Shown here one piece after another: positions 12,148 through 64,000 of a DNA stretch of 64,000 bases. The stretch lies in NCBI RefSeq assembly GCF_014202895.1, contig NZ_JACHHV010000004.1:1-64000 (forward strand), in the 5' to 3' direction. Under the pieces are notes generated by a model, which did no database searches, was not told the DNA's origin, and saw only the letters and a program-made list of their open reading frames with translations. The position numbers and the translations under genes are program-made. Each line of letters starts with the position of its first letter. The stretch's first letter is position 1. This DNA is from Lactovum miscens. Its GTDB lineage: Bacteria; Bacillota; Bacilli; Lactobacillales; Streptococcaceae.

Positions 12148-12354
12148 ATGACTGGAAATATTGCCATTATTGCCATTGCCATTGCAGCAGCAGCTGCTGC
12201 GCTTGGTGATGGTATCATCGTCCAAAGCTTTTTGAGTGCGTCTGCACGCCAACCTGAAATGGAAGCACGCCTTTTCTCCCGTATGATCATTGGTATCGCT
12301 TTTGTTGAAGCGACATTCTTCATCGCCCTTGCTATGTCCTTTGTTATCAAATAA
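12148..12354 (+). CDS. atpE: ATP synthase Fo subunit c
   Basis: Forms the membrane c-ring whose rotation is driven by proton flow. 68 residues, two transmembrane helices with a polar loop containing SARQPE, and the ion-binding Glu54 in FVEAT of helix 2. An Ala-rich helix 1 follows the initial MTGNIAIIAI. The Shine-Dalgarno AGAGGAA precedes the ATG. Being first in the operon, before subunit a, is typical of streptococci and lactococci, where the enzyme mainly works as a proton pump for pH homeostasis. Confidence 0.96.
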   Translation: MTGNIAIIAIAIAAAAAALGDGIIVQSFLSASARQPEMEARLFSRMIIGIAFVEATFFIALAMSFVIK

Positions 12355-51544: not shown

Positions 51545-51786
51545 ATACCTTTATCAAGAAATAAGCTATAATATATTTTATTTCGTACAATGCTCCCTTT
51601 TATTATTATAATCTTAAAAGGATTCAGATCAGATAGATTGTTTGATAAACTTGAATAACAAAATGGAACTATGAGGAAAAAGGTCTAAAAATGTATTTTT
51701 ATATCCCAAAACAGGCATTAGGGTATACCTCTAAATGCCAATTTTTACTCTAAAACACAAAAGAATAACACGCTTCACTCTTGATA

Positions 51787-51801: not shown

Positions 51802-52722
51802 ATGATAAAGAATTATGGATTGAATAGTGAGCATAAGCTTGTAGTGGTAGAGGAATTTAGGGATTTTTCATTTGTTTTCCAGTCAAGCAGGGGAGAAATA
51901 GGTGTAATTTCAAAAAAATTTGATTTTCCTTTTGATTATTTGGGAGGGATACTTGATGATTATGAGAATGCTCGTTTCGAATCTGATAAAAATGGTAATA
52001 CGCTCCTATTACTTCAATTTGCTGCATCAGTTGAAAACGGTGAAGTTCAAACTTTTCCTTTTGCTCTTGTTACTACGGCAGCAGATAAAGTTATTTTTTC
52101 TCTCAATCATGAAGTTCATCTAAATGATGAGGTAGTACAACGTTCTTATAATCCCAAAAAATTTAAACATGAAATCGCCCATCAGATTATTTCTGTAATG
52201 ACAAAAGATTTTGCTAATTACTTAGCTAACTTTAAAAAACGTCGTGCAGTGATTGAAAAAAGCATTTCAAAATCAACTCAGAATGATCAACTTCTGGAGA
52301 TGATTCGTATGCAAGCTAGTCTAGTTTATATTCAGGAGGCATTGGATAATAATCTTCAAGTTTTAAAAAAATATATTGATGTGTTGAAGGAACAAGGTGA
52401 TGATGGTTTTGCCGAAAGTGTTTTTGACCTGTACATTGATACTGAACAGGCAAAAAAAGAGGCCCGTATGCAAGCGAGGCTGATTGAAAATTTACGTGAT
52501 TTATTTTCAAACATTGTTGCTAATAATCTAAACATTGTGATGAAAATTATGACTTCAGCAACTTTTGTTCTTGGTATTCCAGCCGTAGTTTTTGGATTTT
52601 ATGGAATTAATGTTCCAATTCCTGGTCAGAGTTTTTCTTGGATTGTTTGGATAATAATTGGTATGACTTTGATTGTTTGTGGAGTTGTTTCTTGGGTATT
52701 ACGAAAAAAAGATATGATGTAA
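51802..52722 (+). CDS. CorA family divalent cation transporter with a GIN motif
   Basis: 306 residues: a large cytoplasmic funnel with a long helical part and two C-terminal transmembrane helices (about 250-270 and 280-300). The loop between them reads FGFYGINVPIPG; the family signature is YGMN. GMN is needed for Mg2+ selectivity in studied CorA proteins, so ion preference may differ. The stalk helix starts near 150. No Shine-Dalgarno; the gene appears leaderless. Confidence 0.87.
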   Translation: MIKNYGLNSEHKLVVVEEFRDFSFVFQSSRGEIGVISKKFDFPFDYLGGILDDYENARFESDKNGNTLLLLQFAASVENGEVQTFPFALVTTAADKVIFSLNHEVHLNDEVVQRSYNPKKFKHEIAHQIISVMTKDFANYLANFKKRRAVIEKSISKSTQNDQLLEMIRMQASLVYIQEALDNNLQVLKKYIDVLKEQGDDGFAESVFDLYIDTEQAKKEARMQARLIENLRDLFSNIVANNLNIVMKIMTSATFVLGIPAVVFGFYGINVPIPGQSFSWIVWIIIGMTLIVCGVVSWVLRKKDMM

Positions 52723-56919: not shown

Positions 56920-58418
56920 ACCAATTAATTTCAACTTTTCAGCGTCAGCAAGGGCAATTCTGGCAAGCTCTTTTGCAACATATTCAGATTTCTTTAATCT
57001 CAATCTTTATTGCGATTCTGATTGCGATTCCCTTGGCTTTACTTCTGCGTCGTTATCCTAAAATTGCTGAAGTAATTTTACAAATTACTGGGATTTTACA
57101 AACGATTCCAAGTTTGGCACTACTGGGCTTACTCATTCCCTTTATCGGTATTGGGAGCCTCCCTGCTATTGTTGCTTTAGTTGTTTATGCTATCTTTCCG
57201 ATTCTTCAAACAACATATACTGGGCTCAATCAGATAGATCCGTCGCTGACCGAAGCTGCCACAGCGTTTGGTATGACGCGTCGTGAGCGATTAATGAAAT
57301 TTGAACTGGCTTTAGCCATGCCGTTTATAATGGCAGGTATCCGTACTGCCACAGTTATGGTTATTGGTACAGCCACTCTAGCTGCTTTGATTGGTGCAGG
57401 TGGTTTAGGTAATTTCATTCTCCTCGGCATTAACTCTAACGATGTCAATTTAATCTTGATTGGTGCCATTTCGTCAGCCCTTCTTGCGGTGATTTTCTCA
57501 GCTGCCTTAAAATTCTTGGAAAGAGCAAAAATTCGTTTTATTATCATTTCCTTCTTTCTGGGACTAGTCTTACTTGGAGGTTCTTATTATCAGCCTCAAA
57601 CGACCAAGCATCCTCAAATTACCATAGGTGGTAAACTTGGTGCAGAACCTTCTATCCTTATAAATATGTACAAGGATTTGATCGAGAAGAATAGCAATAT
57701 TCGTGTTAATTTAAAGTCAAACTTTGGCGATACAACCTTCCTGTACAATGCCTTGAAGTCAAATAAAATAGATATCTATCCTGAGTATACAGGCACAATT
57801 ACTTCTACTTTTTTGAAGAACACAACAAAATCTACAGATCCTGCAGAGGTCTGGAAAGAAGCTGCTGTAGGTATTCAAAAACTTAACAACATGGTTTATC
57901 TTTCTCCAATGAAGTTTGAAGATACCTACGCTCTGGCTGTTAAGACAAATTTTGCCAAAGAAAAGAAAATTACCACAATTTCAGAATTGGCGGGTCTCTC
58001 AAATATCAATGCTGGTTTTGATCTTGAGTTTGCCAACCGTTCAGATGGATACAAGGGATTACAAAGCCTTTATGGTCTAAATATGAATGTAAAAACCATG
58101 CAGAATAGTTTGATCTATGGAGCACTTAATTCTCAGAGTGTTGATGTAGCCGAAGTTTATTCAACAGATAGTCAAATCAAACAATTTAATTTAACTGTCC
58201 TAAAAGATGACAAGGGACTTTTTCCCCCTTATCAAGCAGCTCCACTTATGAATGCGAGCTTGCTAAAAAAATATCCAGAACTTGAGAACATATTAAATAA
58301 ACTAGCTGGGAAAATTAATGATTCTCAAATGGTTGAAATGAACTATGACGTGAGTGTCAAACAAGATGATCCGGCTAAAGTTGCTAAAAACTTTCTTAAA
58401 GCACAAGGTTTATACTAA
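56916..58418 (+). CDS. choS: ABC permease fused to substrate-binding domain (ChoS/EgtUBC type)
   Basis: 500 residues: permease with five or six helices (about 20-225, including the EAATAFGMTRRERL ATPase-contact loop) and, from about 235, an extracytoplasmic binding domain (ITIGGKLGAEPSILINMYKD, DIYPEYTGT, FEDTYALAVK). One polypeptide per half replaces the usual separate lipoprotein. The substrate could be choline, betaine, carnitine or ergothioneine; the sequence alone does not decide. Overlaps choQ by 4 nt. Confidence 0.88.
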   Translation: MNQLISTFQRQQGQFWQALLQHIQISLISIFIAILIAIPLALLLRRYPKIAEVILQITGILQTIPSLALLGLLIPFIGIGSLPAIVALVVYAIFPILQTTYTGLNQIDPSLTEAATAFGMTRRERLMKFELALAMPFIMAGIRTATVMVIGTATLAALIGAGGLGNFILLGINSNDVNLILIGAISSALLAVIFSAALKFLERAKIRFIIISFFLGLVLLGGSYYQPQTTKHPQITIGGKLGAEPSILINMYKDLIEKNSNIRVNLKSNFGDTTFLYNALKSNKIDIYPEYTGTITSTFLKNTTKSTDPAEVWKEAAVGIQKLNNMVYLSPMKFEDTYALAVKTNFAKEKKITTISELAGLSNINAGFDLEFANRSDGYKGLQSLYGLNMNVKTMQNSLIYGALNSQSVDVAEVYSTDSQIKQFNLTVLKDDKGLFPPYQAAPLMNASLLKKYPELENILNKLAGKINDSQMVEMNYDVSVKQDDPAKVAKNFLKAQGLY

Positions 58419-58512
58419 TTTTTAATTGGCTGAAGATTTCAAAATGATTTATGTTATTATCCTGTTAAATACTTTTTATATTTTTAGAAATTGTAAATAA
58501 AAAGGAATAATT

Positions 58513-59090
58513 ATGACAGGTTTTTTCTCGATTTACGTGAGGGGTTGAAGCTTCAATTGTTTTGAGGGTCATTCTCACTCAACTTTACAAAAACAAATAA
58601 AAAATTCTTATGAAATTTGTTTTTTTGGTATTCTGCTCGCATTTCAAATCTGTGTCGTTGGTGGGACCATCCCCTCCCTAACACTTGGAGAAATTGAAAA
58701 TAATGGCCTATTTGAGGGGTAATAATGATGTTTGTTTCTACAGACTTTATTAGTTATCTCCCTTATTTGATTCACCATAATTCAAGTGTTAGTGCGGTTG
58801 AAACTAGACTTTCAAGAAACTCAGGATGCATTACGTTAGTCTCTTCTTACTGTCTTTTGTCTTTCCTGACAGTTTTGTGGGAAGGAATGGAACTCTTTAT
58901 TTTCATTATTTTTCAATTTTAAAATAGTTCATACCTTATTGCTATGGTAACTTTGTTAGGTCTTTTCTTGGCTATTTTGATTACTTACTTGATTTATCAA
59001 GGGAAATTGGAAATATGTTACAGAAGCAAAAGTCGTAAAAACTATTTGTGGCATTCTCCGTTTCTTCGCATTATTTAATTGTAATTTCAA
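58513..59090 (+). pseudogene. Decayed FTR1/EfeU-type iron permease
   Basis: AAAGGA and ATG (58513) of the old start are intact, but the frame stops after 11 codons. Across frames the FTR1 features can be read: YVRG / LREGL (the REGLE iron motif) near 58532, NNGLFEG near 58705, LLSFLTVLWEGMELFIF (second, now WEGME, motif) near 58855-58910, and LLGLFLAILITYLIYQGKL near 58950-59010. Several frameshifts and stops exclude function. Confidence 0.75.
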
Positions 59091-59182
59091 ATTGAATTTT
59101 TGAAAATCCGAACGTTGAATTAATCTTTTTTAAATTTTACTTTCTAGAAATAACTCCTGACTAATAATTCTGATAAACTAGA

Positions 59183-59188
59183 TAAAAT
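59183..59188 (+). promoter_or_regulatory. Possible -10 of the pyr operon
   Basis: TAAAAT just upstream of GGAGG. No good -35 is seen, so the start site is uncertain. Confidence 0.4.
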
Positions 59189-59202
59189 GTCCGGAGGAAA
59201 AA

Positions 59203-59340
59203 ATGTTGAAGAAAAAAATTCGTTTGTGTTTACCAAAAATTAAACAAATTGATTTCATTTTTAAACATCTTTTAAATCCATTTTCACATTTTCAACTATA
59301 TTTAAACCATAAAAGTTCATATCTGTTACTTCTTAAGTAA
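59203..59340 (+). CDS. Leader peptide of the pyr operon (pyrL-like)
   Basis: A 45-codon frame with an ideal GGAGGAAAAAA upstream, starting MLKKKIRLCLPKIKQ. Its mRNA is rich in U clusters (about 59248-59300). Its stop codon lies in the apical part of a terminator hairpin directly in front of pyrB. The E. coli pyrBI leader peptide, as I remember it, has 44 residues with VRHFVLPRLKK at a similar place. The mechanism would be the same: low UTP slows RNA polymerase at U-rich sites, the ribosome catches up and prevents the hairpin. The homology is unproven; the arrangement is seen directly. Confidence 0.6.
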   Translation: MLKKKIRLCLPKIKQIDFIFKHLLNPFSHFQLYLNHKSSYLLLLK

Positions 59341-59365
59341 TTCAGATATGGGCTTTTATTTTATG
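59311..59365 (+). terminator. Attenuator in front of pyrB
   Basis: Stem AAAAGTTCATATCTG / CAGATATGGGCTTTT (15 bp, two G-T), extended by an apical TTACTT / AAGTAA stem with a 2-nt bulge, then TTTTATTTTAT. It overlaps the end of the leader ORF. Confidence 0.85.
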
Positions 59366-59384: not shown

Positions 59385-60305
59385 ATGATGCCAATCGTGA
59401 AATCAATTGTTAAGCTAAAACATTTTACAACTATTGAAAATATTTCAAATGAAGAGATATTGACCTTATTAGATCGTGCTCATGAATTTAAAGCAGGAGC
59501 CTCATGGGAGCCAAGGAAGAAGCAAATATTTACCAGTAACCTGTTTTTTGAAAATTCGACAAGAACCCATAACTCTTTCATAATTGCAGAGCGAAAATTA
59601 GGGCTAGAGGTATTGGAATTTGATGCAGTAGGGTCTAGTTTATCAAAAGGCGAAACACTTTATGACACTATTCTTACCTTGGATGCATTGGGGGTGGACG
59701 TCTGTGTGATTCGACATAGTCAGGATCAATATTATGATGAACTGATTCAATCACCAAATCTACATTTAGCAATTGTTAATGGAGGAGATGGCTCAGGTCA
59801 ACATCCTTCACAATGCCTGCTTGATCTAATGACGATTCAGGAAGAATTTGGAACTTTTGAAGGGCTCAAGATTTTAATTGTTGGAGATATTGACCACTCA
59901 AGAGTTGCGCGAAGTAATGCCCAAATGTTAACAAGGTTGGGTGCTAAAGTATATTTCTCTGGTCCAGAAGAATGGTATTCCGAAGAAGAATTTTCTGAAT
60001 TTGGACCGCACATGCAAATTGATAATTTGCTAGGTGAAATGGATGTGGTGATGCTTTTGCGAGTACAACATGAGCGTCATACAGAAGATGAGGGTTTTAT
60101 CAAAGAAAACTATCATCAAACGTTTGGACTTACCCTTGAAAGAGCAAAAAGGATGAAATCTGGAGCCATAATCATGCATCCAGCGCCAGTTAATCGAGAT
60201 GTGGAACTAGCCGACCAACTTGTAGAAGGATCTCAATCGAGGATTGTAAAACAGATGCAAAATGGTGTCTATGCCCGAATGGCTATCCTTGAAGCGGTGT
60301 TATAA
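59385..60305 (+). CDS. pyrB: Aspartate carbamoyltransferase
   Basis: Second step of pyrimidine synthesis. 306 residues; carbamoyl-phosphate loop [12 protein letters not shown] near 54, HPSQCLLDL, and [10 protein letters not shown] near 225. Two ATGs in tandem (59385, 59388) follow GGGAGGG closely; the second is the better spaced. Without a regulatory subunit gene, so of the Gram-positive trimer type. The operon continues directly into pyrC. Confidence 0.96.
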
Positions 60306-60307
60306 GC

Positions 60308-61594
60308 ATGAAATTTATTATAAAAAATGCTCGAATAATTGATAAAGAAAACAAACTTATTCAGGTTGATTTTCTTTTAGAGTCTGGGAAAATTAAAGCA
60401 ATTGGATCTGATCTTTCAGAAATCTATGGGTCAGTTGAAAAGATTTATGATGCTAAAAACGCACTGGTAATTCCTGGCTTAGTTGACTTACATGTTCATT
60501 TACGTGAACCAGGCTTTGAATATAAAGAAACAATTGAAACAGGAAGTCTAGCTGCTGCACATGGAGGCTATACGACAATTTGCGCCATGCCAAACCTAAA
60601 TCCTGTTCCAAGTAAGCCTGATAGAGTAAAAGCAATCTACGAGAAAATCAAAGAACATGCAAAAGTAAAAGTACTGCAATATGCAACTATAACTGATGAA
60701 TTGCGCACGGGAGATTTAGTCGACTTTGAGGGTTTAATAAAAGCAGGAGCTTTTGCCTTTTCTAACGATGGGGCTGCTATTCAATCAGCTTCTACAATGT
60801 ATCAAGCAATGCTAGAAGCAGCCAGACTAGGTAAAGCAATTGTCGCACATGTTGAAGAAGAAAGTCTAATGAATGGTGGTGTTATGCGTTTAGGTAAACG
60901 CAGCCATGAATTAGGAATTCCAGGAATGCCTTCAATTGTTGAAAGCTCACAATTAGCGCGTGACTTGGTCTTAGCTCAAGCAACTGGTGTGCATTATCAC
61001 GTTTGCCATGTTTCAACAAAAGAAAGTTTACGCTTGATTCGTGATGCAAAGAAAGCTGGTGTGCATGTGACGGCCGAAGTCTGTCCTCATCATCTAATTT
61101 TATCTGATGAGGATATTATAGAAGATAACGCCATATGGAAGATGAACCCACCTCTTCCAAGCAAGTCGGATCGGGCTGCACTTGTAGAAGGATTACTAGA
61201 TGGCACGATTGATTTAATTTCCACCGATCATGCCCCACACTCAAAAGCTGAAAAAGAAGGATCTTTCGTTGAGGGATCTTTTGGAATAGTTGGCAGCGAA
61301 ACAGCTTTTTCACTCATTTATACAGAGTTTGTGAAAAAAGGAATTTTCACATTAGAACAAGTGGTTCGCTGGATGAGTTTGAATCCAGCTAGCTTGTTCA
61401 ATCTAAAGGTGGGTAATTTACAAATTGGAAGTCCAGCTGACCTTGCAGTTTTTGATATTGACAATGATTATGAAATAGATGCAAGAGACTTTGAGTCTAA
61501 GGGCACTAACAGTCCCTTCATTGGTTGGAAGGTTAAAGGAAAAACATTAATGACTTTTGTAGAAGGAAAACTTGTTTGGTATGAAAAGGAATAA
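60308..61594 (+). CDS. pyrC: Dihydroorotase
   Basis: Cyclises carbamoyl-aspartate. 428 residues; metal site DLHVHLREPG near 60, then AHVEEES near 182, CHVSTKES, and STDHAPHS near 306. Type I (long) dihydroorotase. Starts 2 nt after pyrB. Confidence 0.95.
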   Translation: MKFIIKNARIIDKENKLIQVDFLLESGKIKAIGSDLSEIYGSVEKIYDAKNALVIPGLVDLHVHLREPGFEYKETIETGSLAAAHGGYTTICAMPNLNPVPSKPDRVKAIYEKIKEHAKVKVLQYATITDELRTGDLVDFEGLIKAGAFAFSNDGAAIQSASTMYQAMLEAARLGKAIVAHVEEESLMNGGVMRLGKRSHELGIPGMPSIVESSQLARDLVLAQATGVHYHVCHVSTKESLRLIRDAKKAGVHVTAEVCPHHLILSDEDIIEDNAIWKMNPPLPSKSDRAALVEGLLDGTIDLISTDHAPHSKAEKEGSFVEGSFGIVGSETAFSLIYTEFVKKGIFTLEQVVRWMSLNPASLFNLKVGNLQIGSPADLAVFDIDNDYEIDARDFESKGTNSPFIGWKVKGKTLMTFVEGKLVWYEKE

Positions 61595-61600
61595 AGCAGT

Positions 61601-62680
61601 ATGAAAAGATATTTGATTTTAGAAGATGGAAGTATTTTTGAAGGTAATAGCTTTGGAGCAACAACAGATGCTACAGGTGAACTGGTCTTTTCAACTGGAA
61701 TGACAGGCTATCAGGAATCAATCACTGATCAAAGCTATAATGGCCAACTCTTGATCTTTACTTACCCACTTATTGGAAATTATGGGATCAATCGAGATGA
61801 CAACGAGTCACTGATGCCAACGACAAAGGCAGTTATTGTAAAGGAGGTGGCTCGACGGCCAAGTAATTGGCGTAATGAAATGAGTCTCGATGACTTCTTG
61901 AAGTCGAAGAATATTCCTGCTATTTCAGGAATTGATACACGTGCTCTTACACGTAAGATACGTAAAGAAGGTACCATGAGAGCAAGTTTGATTTCTGAAA
62001 TTGATGACCTTGATGAAGAAATAGAGGGGTTAAAAACTTTAGATTTACCAACTAATCAAGTTGAACAAGTTTCTACCTTGAAAGCTTATCCTTCACCAGG
62101 TAAAGGACGTAAAGTTATTGTGGTGGATTTTGGACTAAAACATTCAATATTACGTGAACTTTCAAATCGTAACTGTGATTTGATTGTACTCCCCTATAAC
62201 ATTGAAGCAAAAACAATTCTAGATTTTCATCCAGATGGTGTAGTTTTATCTAATGGCCCAGGCGATCCTAAAGATGTCCCTGAGGCCATTGAAATGATTC
62301 GTAATATTCAAGGGAAAGTCCCAATCTTTGGAATCTGTCTCGGTCATCAACTTTTCAGCCTCGCCAATGGTGCAGATACCTATAAGATGAAGTTTGGTCA
62401 CCGTGGCTTTAACCATGCGGTGCGTGATCTTTCAAGTGGAAAAATCCAGTTTACCTCACAAAATCACGGTTTTGCAGTTAATCAAGCAACTTGTGATCCT
62501 GAACGTTTAATCGTGACACACGTTGAGATCAATGATGGTTCAGTCGAAGGCGTTCGCCATGCAAAGTTTGCTGCATTTTCTGTTCAATTCCATCCAGATT
62601 CAGCACCAGGACCACATGATGCTGTGGGATTATTTGATAATTTTATGACACTCATGGACGATTTTAAGAAAGGAAAATAA
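61601..62680 (+). CDS. carA: Carbamoyl-phosphate synthase small subunit
   Basis: Supplies ammonia from glutamine. 359 residues; N-terminal [20 protein letters not shown], class I amidotransferase nucleophile Cys in [10 protein letters not shown] near 247, and the His in [11 protein letters not shown] near 330. Six nt after pyrC. Confidence 0.96.
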
Positions 62681-62682
62681 GG

Positions 62683-64000
62683 ATGCCCAAAAGAACTGAT
62701 ATTAAGAAAATTATGGTCATTGGCTCAGGTCCCATCATTATTGGTCAAGCTGCTGAATTCGACTATGCGGGTACACAAGCCTGTCTTGCCCTTAAAGAGG
62801 AAGGGTATGAAGTAGTTCTTGTCAACTCAAACCCTGCAACCATCATGACTGATCGTGAAATTGCTGATAAGGTGTACATTGAACCGATAACGATTGAATT
62901 TGTTAGCCGCATCTTGCGTAAAGAAAGACCAGAAGCCTTACTTCCCACACTTGGTGGTCAAACGGGACTCAACATGGCGATGTCTTTGCATAAGATAGGT
63001 ATTCTTGAAGAACTCGATATTGAATTACTCGGAACGAAGCTCTCAGCGATTGATCGAGCTGAAGATCGTGAACTTTTCAAAGGGCTCTGTGAATCTATTG
63101 GTGAACCACTCTGTGAATCAGATATTGCCACTACCGCTGAAGAAGCATTGACAATTGCCGAAACAATTGGCTACCCATTGATTGTTCGACCAGCCTTTAC
63201 CCTTGGAGGTACAGGCGGGGGTATTTGCCAAAATCAAATAGAACTTGTGGAAATTGTAAAAAATGGATTGAAACTCTCACCTGTTACACAGTGTTTAATA
63301 GAGCAATCAATTGCTGGCTACAAGGAAATTGAGTATGAAGTGATGCGTGATTCAGCAGACAATACGATTGTTGTCTGCAATATGGAAAACTTTGATCCTG
63401 TCGGTATTCACACAGGTGACTCGATCGTCTTTGCTCCAAGCCAAACCTTGTCAGATTATGAATATCAAATGCTTCGTGATGCAAGCTTTAGAATTATACG
63501 TGAACTTGGTATTGAAGGAGGTTGTAATGTCCAATTTGCTCTTGATCCAAAAAGTTTTAACTACTATGTCATTGAGGTTAACCCACGTGTCTCTCGCTCA
63601 TCAGCACTTGCTTCAAAAGCAACAGGTTATCCCATTGCCAAGTTGGCTGCGAAGATTGCGGTAGGTTTGACCTTGGATGAGATGAAAAATCCTGTCACGG
63701 GGAAAACCTATGCTCAATTCGAGCCAGCTCTTGATTATGTGGTCACAAAGATTCCGCGTTGGCCATTTGATAAGTTTGAAAATGGTGACCGTAATCTTGG
63801 GACACAAATGAAGGCTACTGGTGAAGTTATGGCCATCGGTCGAAATATTGAAGAGAGCCTTTTAAAAGCAGTTAATTCACTTGAAATTGGACTAACTCAT
63901 GCTGAGCTGCCAGAACTTCAGGAAGTTTCGGAAGAAGTCTTAATTGAAAAAATGATTAAGCCTCAAGATGACCGTCTCTTCTATGTAACAGAAGCAATCC
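62683..64000 (+). CDS. carB: Carbamoyl-phosphate synthase large subunit (5' part)
   Basis: Makes carbamoyl phosphate from bicarbonate, ATP and ammonia. The frame runs off the window after 439 codons; the full protein is about 1060. Seen: [40 protein letters not shown], the ATP-grasp glycine loop FTLGGTGGG near 173, and [20 protein letters not shown] near 295. ATG two nt after the carA stop, AAGG upstream. Confidence 0.96.

Follow-up and report, generated by a model that had tools for sequence, protein, structure and literature searches.

A short open reading frame (ORF) that runs into a terminator hairpin lies directly upstream of pyrB in Lactovum miscens, within a stretch of 64,000 nt (the window; positions 1 to 64,000 of contig NZ_JACHHV010000004.1, forward strand) from a genome that is 99.2% complete (G000). 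The features of this leader and of the genes that follow are listed in Table 1. The operon continues beyond the window: pyrK, pyrD (type 1), pyrF and pyrE (NCBIfam) follow carB in the same direction to about position 68,970 of the contig (locus L138), giving the order pyrB-C-carA-B-pyrK-D-F-E. Since all genes from pyrB to pyrE are co-directional and downstream, the leader precedes every gene of uridine monophosphate synthesis. An earlier note, written from the sequence alone, had described a pyrBI-style translational attenuator at this site, and the anatomy it gave, a 45-codon ORF (59203-59340) with a strong Shine-Dalgarno sequence (SD; GGAGG) and a stop codon inside a strong hairpin, was borne out.

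Table 1. Features of the pyr leader and the genes downstream of it (window coordinates).
Feature	Position	Strand	Description and evidence
Shine-Dalgarno GGAGG	59193-59197	+	5 nt 5' of the leader ATG; sequence
Leader ORF	59203-59340	+	ATG, 45 codons, MLKKKIRLCLPKIKQIDFIFKHLLNPFSHFQLYLNHKSSYLLLLK and stop, U-rich, G-poor; ORF list, shuffles (p = 0.00045-0.00135)
G-depleted, U-tract-rich stretch	59229-59308	+	1 G in 80, T runs; proposed UTP-sensitive pausing region
Intrinsic-terminator hairpin (attenuator)	59309-59358	+	5' arm wholly leader-coding; folding, ribosome footprint model
Leader ORF stop TAA	59338-59340	+	Near tip of the hairpin
Interrupted U tract of attenuator, TTTTATTTTA	59354-59363	+	Overlaps stem foot; sequence
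pyrB, aspartate carbamoyltransferase	59385-60305	+	First gene of the operon; Pfam/NCBIfam
pyrC, dihydroorotase	60308-61594	+	Pfam/NCBIfam
carA	61601-62680	+	NCBIfam
carB	62683-64000	+	Runs beyond the window; NCBIfam

The hairpin has 22-23 pairs and a folding energy of -22.2 kcal/mol (z -8.0), equalled by 0 of 200 shuffles, and is followed by TTTTATTTTATG. It ends 26 bp before the pyrB ATG, within the 20-40 nt that had been proposed. A generic terminator scan did not include it among its calls; the interrupted U tract and the length and AU-richness of the stem are the probable reasons.

The overlap of ORF and hairpin is rare by chance. Of the dinucleotide-shuffled versions of the leader region, 0.045% had an ORF of at least 45 codons preceded by an SD, and an SD-ATG ORF of at least 40 codons entering the hairpin arose in 0.135% when the hairpin was held fixed and the upstream leader alone was shuffled. 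Both strands of the window together have 43 terminator-like hairpins, and no other of them shows a non-trivial overlap with an SD-led ORF. Just two others are entered by such an ORF at all, namely one of 68 codons at 12148, which resembles a genuine gene (ATP synthase c-subunit-like, judged by eye), and one of 20 codons at 51691 (see below). The leader ORF could be a small, independently terminated gene that has nothing to do with pyrB, which would then have a separate promoter, and terminators right behind stop codons are indeed common in G000 genes. However, the 26 bp between the hairpin and the pyrB ATG are too short for a promoter and an SD, and the hairpin extends 32 nt back into the ORF, farther than terminators do in any of the convincing ordinary genes, so that this explanation is scarcely credible.

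The 80 nt before the hairpin consist of 42.5% T, 39% A, 17.5% C and 1.3% G (a single G), in agreement with the U-rich leader described previously. The T content places this stretch in the top 2.3% of coding-strand 80-mers and the top 5% of all 80-mers, and a single G is the lowest count among the 63,920 80-mers of the window. All seven 80-mers with no more than one G fall here; none has one C or fewer, hence there are none on the opposite strand. Runs of 3-5 T are spaced at about 10 nt from 59253 to 59303. This G-poor, U-tract composition keeps the leader RNA open and gives the polymerase many consecutive U additions, and the U tracts are candidate sites of polymerase pausing. A stretch with more C than G (C 17.5%, G 1.3%) might also act as a bubble for Rho-dependent termination in the leader, but this was ruled out, as Rho (PF07497) gave no match in G000 while nine control genomes, including B. 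subtilis and L. lactis, were positive.

In Lactobacillales and Bacillus, and in nearly all relatives of G000, the attenuator before these same genes is a PyrR-binding leader (RF00515). In G000, PyrR and its RNA element are both absent. The best match to PyrR in the genome is an HPRT-like protein (27.6 bits, with the cut-off at 138), RF00515 was not found anywhere in it, and no Rfam family, not even a degenerate PyrR element, matched the leader at E <= 5. The absence of a PyrR-binding loop, as previously stated, thus extends to the pyrR gene. With both components missing from G000, and relatives positive for the element, a PyrR-controlled leader was rejected. PyrR is present in 325 of 337 genomes of the family of G000, probably Streptococcaceae judging by genus sizes, in 211 of 218 genomes of the order (an even draw), and in three genomes of the same genus (G001, G003 and G004). 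One of these, G003, carries RF00515 directly before pyrB, indicating that PyrR control was replaced in G000.

The leader has the anatomy of the E. coli pyrBI leader, the attenuation mechanism of which is well established. In both, a U-rich leader ORF of 44-45 codons with an SD overlaps an intrinsic terminator that lies just upstream of pyrB; both have a U/C-rich, G-poor stretch before the hairpin, and neither needs an antiterminator. They differ in that the E. coli ORF continues past the terminator until 3 nt short of pyrB, whereas the G000 ORF stops in the hairpin; in that E. coli controls pyrB-pyrI only, whereas the G000 leader precedes the whole pyrB-pyrE pathway; and in that the terminator is GC-rich in E. 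coli but AU-rich in G000, with no sequence homology. The PyrL leader peptide family (PF08052, PyrBI_leader) had no match at E <= 10 in the window peptide or in G000, while PyrL of E. coli MG1655, used as a positive control, was found at 117 bits. The local likeness of the leader peptide to PyrL (IRLCLPKIK in the earlier note; LPKIKQ/LPRLKK in the alignment) has a score of 21, which 42.5% of shuffled peptides equalled. Homology with PyrL was therefore rejected, and a transfer from enterobacteria is not supported; of the pyrBI-style attenuator proposed earlier, the anatomy and the lack of a PyrR-binding RNA stand, and the kinship with E. coli PyrL does not. The leader probably works like pyrBI, but outside the PyrL family.

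The reading that we favour, and regard as reasonably likely, is a convergent, translation-coupled and uridine triphosphate (UTP)-sensitive attenuator of pyrBI type, which took over control of the whole pyrimidine operon from the lost PyrR. The anatomy, together with the genes controlled, points to UTP as the signal and to translation of the leader ORF as the means, with the position of the ribosome deciding on termination. When UTP is ample, the polymerase would pass the U tracts quickly and leave the first ribosome behind, the hairpin would fold, and transcription would mostly end before pyrB. When UTP is scarce, the polymerase would hesitate at the U tracts, and a ribosome started at 59203 could catch up and cover the hairpin's 5' arm, all of which is within the reading frame, so that the polymerase would continue into pyrB-pyrE. 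Read-through at low UTP is the response that a control of pyrimidine synthesis would call for.

This scheme was modelled by allowing no pairs within the 30 nt covered by a ribosome. In this simple model, the terminator remained intact up to an A-site at codon 32 and was gone from codons 37-39 on, the 21 expected pairs (of 22) falling to six or fewer from codon 37 and to none at codons 39-44. No competing antiterminator helix was found in the leader, the best pairing with the 5' arm of the hairpin being seven A-U or G-U pairs. Since no leader segment pairs well with the hairpin arms, a ribosome-like agent would be needed to open the hairpin. Published measurements in E. coli show that terminators are suppressed by ribosomes whose stop codon is nearby, and coupling on short leaders depends on pauses of the polymerase (PMC4824070).

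A ribosome could also be stalled by other means, such as a run of Leu codons close to the tip of the hairpin (CTG TTA CTT CTT) or another peptide motif, in which case the leader would sense an amino acid or its own nascent peptide. Leader-peptide attenuation was reportedly known from Proteobacteria and Actinobacteria only, before a prediction of His leader peptides for hisS/hisZ in Bacilli (PMC2965389). As proposed for G000, these would replace another sensor in Firmicutes and are possibly convergent. Those leaders sense an amino acid through specific codons, in contrast to the sensing of UTP by polymerase pausing proposed here. As leucine has no link to the pyr operon, a trp-type alternative hairpin was not found, and the leaders of a second lineage (described next) have no Leu run at the hairpin, a sensor of this kind is very improbable.

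An order-wide search identified seven genomes without PyrR, G000 included, and three PyrR-less genomes with pyrB (G389, G488 and G416) belong to another family of the order. G389 and G488 are of one genus (g41) and carry a leader ORF before pyrB and then pyrC, at L148:1282-1503 and L149:1272-1469, respectively. The ORFs have 73 and 65 codons (MKTDKL.CTL...SSVFIFPDLFQNKKFN...DLIDFNRDIFL...), and hairpins of -13.9 and -14.3 kcal/mol begin within them at about codons 45 and 43, followed by TTTTTTT still inside the ORF. The promoters are clearly of sigma-70 type (TTGACA and TTGACT, respectively, with a 17 nt spacer and TATACT), and the SD is GGAGG in one leader and the weaker GAAGGCGG in the other. 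Between the two genomes, the pyrB proteins of which are 89% identical, the promoter, the hairpin and the middle of the ORF (SSVFIFPDLFQNKKFN, DLIDFNRDIFL) are kept, one G-U pair of the hairpin is replaced by A-U, and the net length differences 5' of the hairpin are in frame. The chance of such a layout is 1.0% and 0.2%, respectively. As in G000, these are PyrR-less genomes of the same order with a leader ORF over a terminator before pyrB and a U-rich upstream part; they differ from G000 in the unrelated peptide, the clear promoter, and an ORF that passes the hairpin and T7, as in E. coli.

RF00515 was not found at the pyrB leaders of G389 and G488, and it stands before pyrB in all 12 of their PyrR-bearing relatives that have pyrB. 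The layout therefore goes with PyrR loss in two lineages whose leader peptides are unrelated, which suggests that a pyrBI-like switch evolved more than once in Gram-positive bacteria. If so, a kinetic RNA/translation sensor has taken the place of a protein regulator in two cases, and such a switch in Lactobacillales would provide a natural test of ribosome-polymerase coupling in Gram-positives. The G389/G488 leader would be easier to test than that of G000, its promoter being clear.

Several observations weigh against this interpretation. No relative shares the G000 leader: the best non-self matches to the leader peptide in 58 relatives were scattered chance hits, the leader DNA had no counterpart across the genus, and the leaders of 109 other pyrB loci had just short chance ORFs with weak starts, most of them in leaders of PyrR type. 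The lack of ORF conservation in relatives, which the earlier note named as a refutation, is thus literally the case within the genus, although these relatives retain PyrR or have no pyrB and are for that reason not expected to carry the leader. Codon usage does not single out the leader frame, leaving the SD and the length of the ORF as the support for its translation, and in the g41 leaders pN is close to pS (0.15 vs 0.17), by which coding selection is unproven either way. Promoter-like sites upstream of the G000 leader are at chance level, and no good sigma-70 promoter is recognisable there. The PyrR-less genomes of a third genus, g3 (G006, G015, G022 and G028), have pyrB with neither such a leader ORF nor an Rfam cis-element; replacement of PyrR by a leader ORF is not universal. 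Lastly, terminators of ordinary G000 genes lie at a median of 17 nt after the stop codon and under 12 nt in 39% of cases (23 genes, a crude estimate). In B. subtilis, the polymerase of which outruns its ribosomes, terminators near stop codons are associated with this behaviour (PMC7858274), and tight coupling is therefore not to be assumed in G000. If the same is true of G000, transcription would terminate by default, and the ribosome would need low UTP to catch up. It is an even question whether, after PyrR loss, UTP-sensing leader-peptide attenuation arose independently at least twice in Lactobacillales (G000 and the genus of G389/G488), convergent with the Gram-negative pyrBI and in organisms thought to be loosely coupled, with low-UTP pausing itself creating the coupling.

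Another possibility is a real attenuator that is governed by some other factor, be it a protein, a small RNA or a metabolite, acting on the U-rich leader RNA, with the ORF incidental. The lack of a codon-usage signal in the ORF would fit this, U tracts at about 10-nt spacing could form a binding array, and the PyrR-less g3 genomes use something else again. It is unlikely, as an SD with a long ORF into a hairpin is rare by chance and recurs in a second PyrR-less lineage, and the leader neither matches an Rfam family nor has an alternative fold for antitermination. Less likely still is a relic or fixed damper, in which the old leader disappeared together with PyrR control and the present hairpin lowers operon expression to a constant degree. 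The missing pyrR gene and the approximately 770 bp upstream of the leader without a recognisable gene fit this reading, but the ORF has an ideal SD and spans the entire 5' arm of the hairpin, and the G-depletion is so extreme that it would hardly be kept under drift.

The upstream neighbour of the leader is a glycine-betaine-type ABC transporter ending at 58418. Between it and the leader (58420-59190) are short membrane-like ORFs without a Pfam match, perhaps decayed genes.

The g3 genomes are reduced, at about 1.0-1.3 Mb, and pyrB often lies apart from the other pyr genes; in G028 the gene after it is BioD-like, and a hairpin and T6 lie about 40 nt before it in G015 (L008). PyrR-less G416 (L150) has no ORF reaching a terminator before pyrB. 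It has a promoter and a structured leader of about 200 nt that ends in T8 before pyrB and has no Rfam match, possibly an undescribed cis-element.

Enterobacterial Mg2+ transporter leaders also employ leader peptides. The 20-codon SD-led ORF of the window (MYFYIPKQALGYTSKCQFLL; 51691-51753, + strand) runs into a hairpin of -11 kcal/mol before a CorA-type Mg2+ transporter gene (51802-52722), and is a marginal case.
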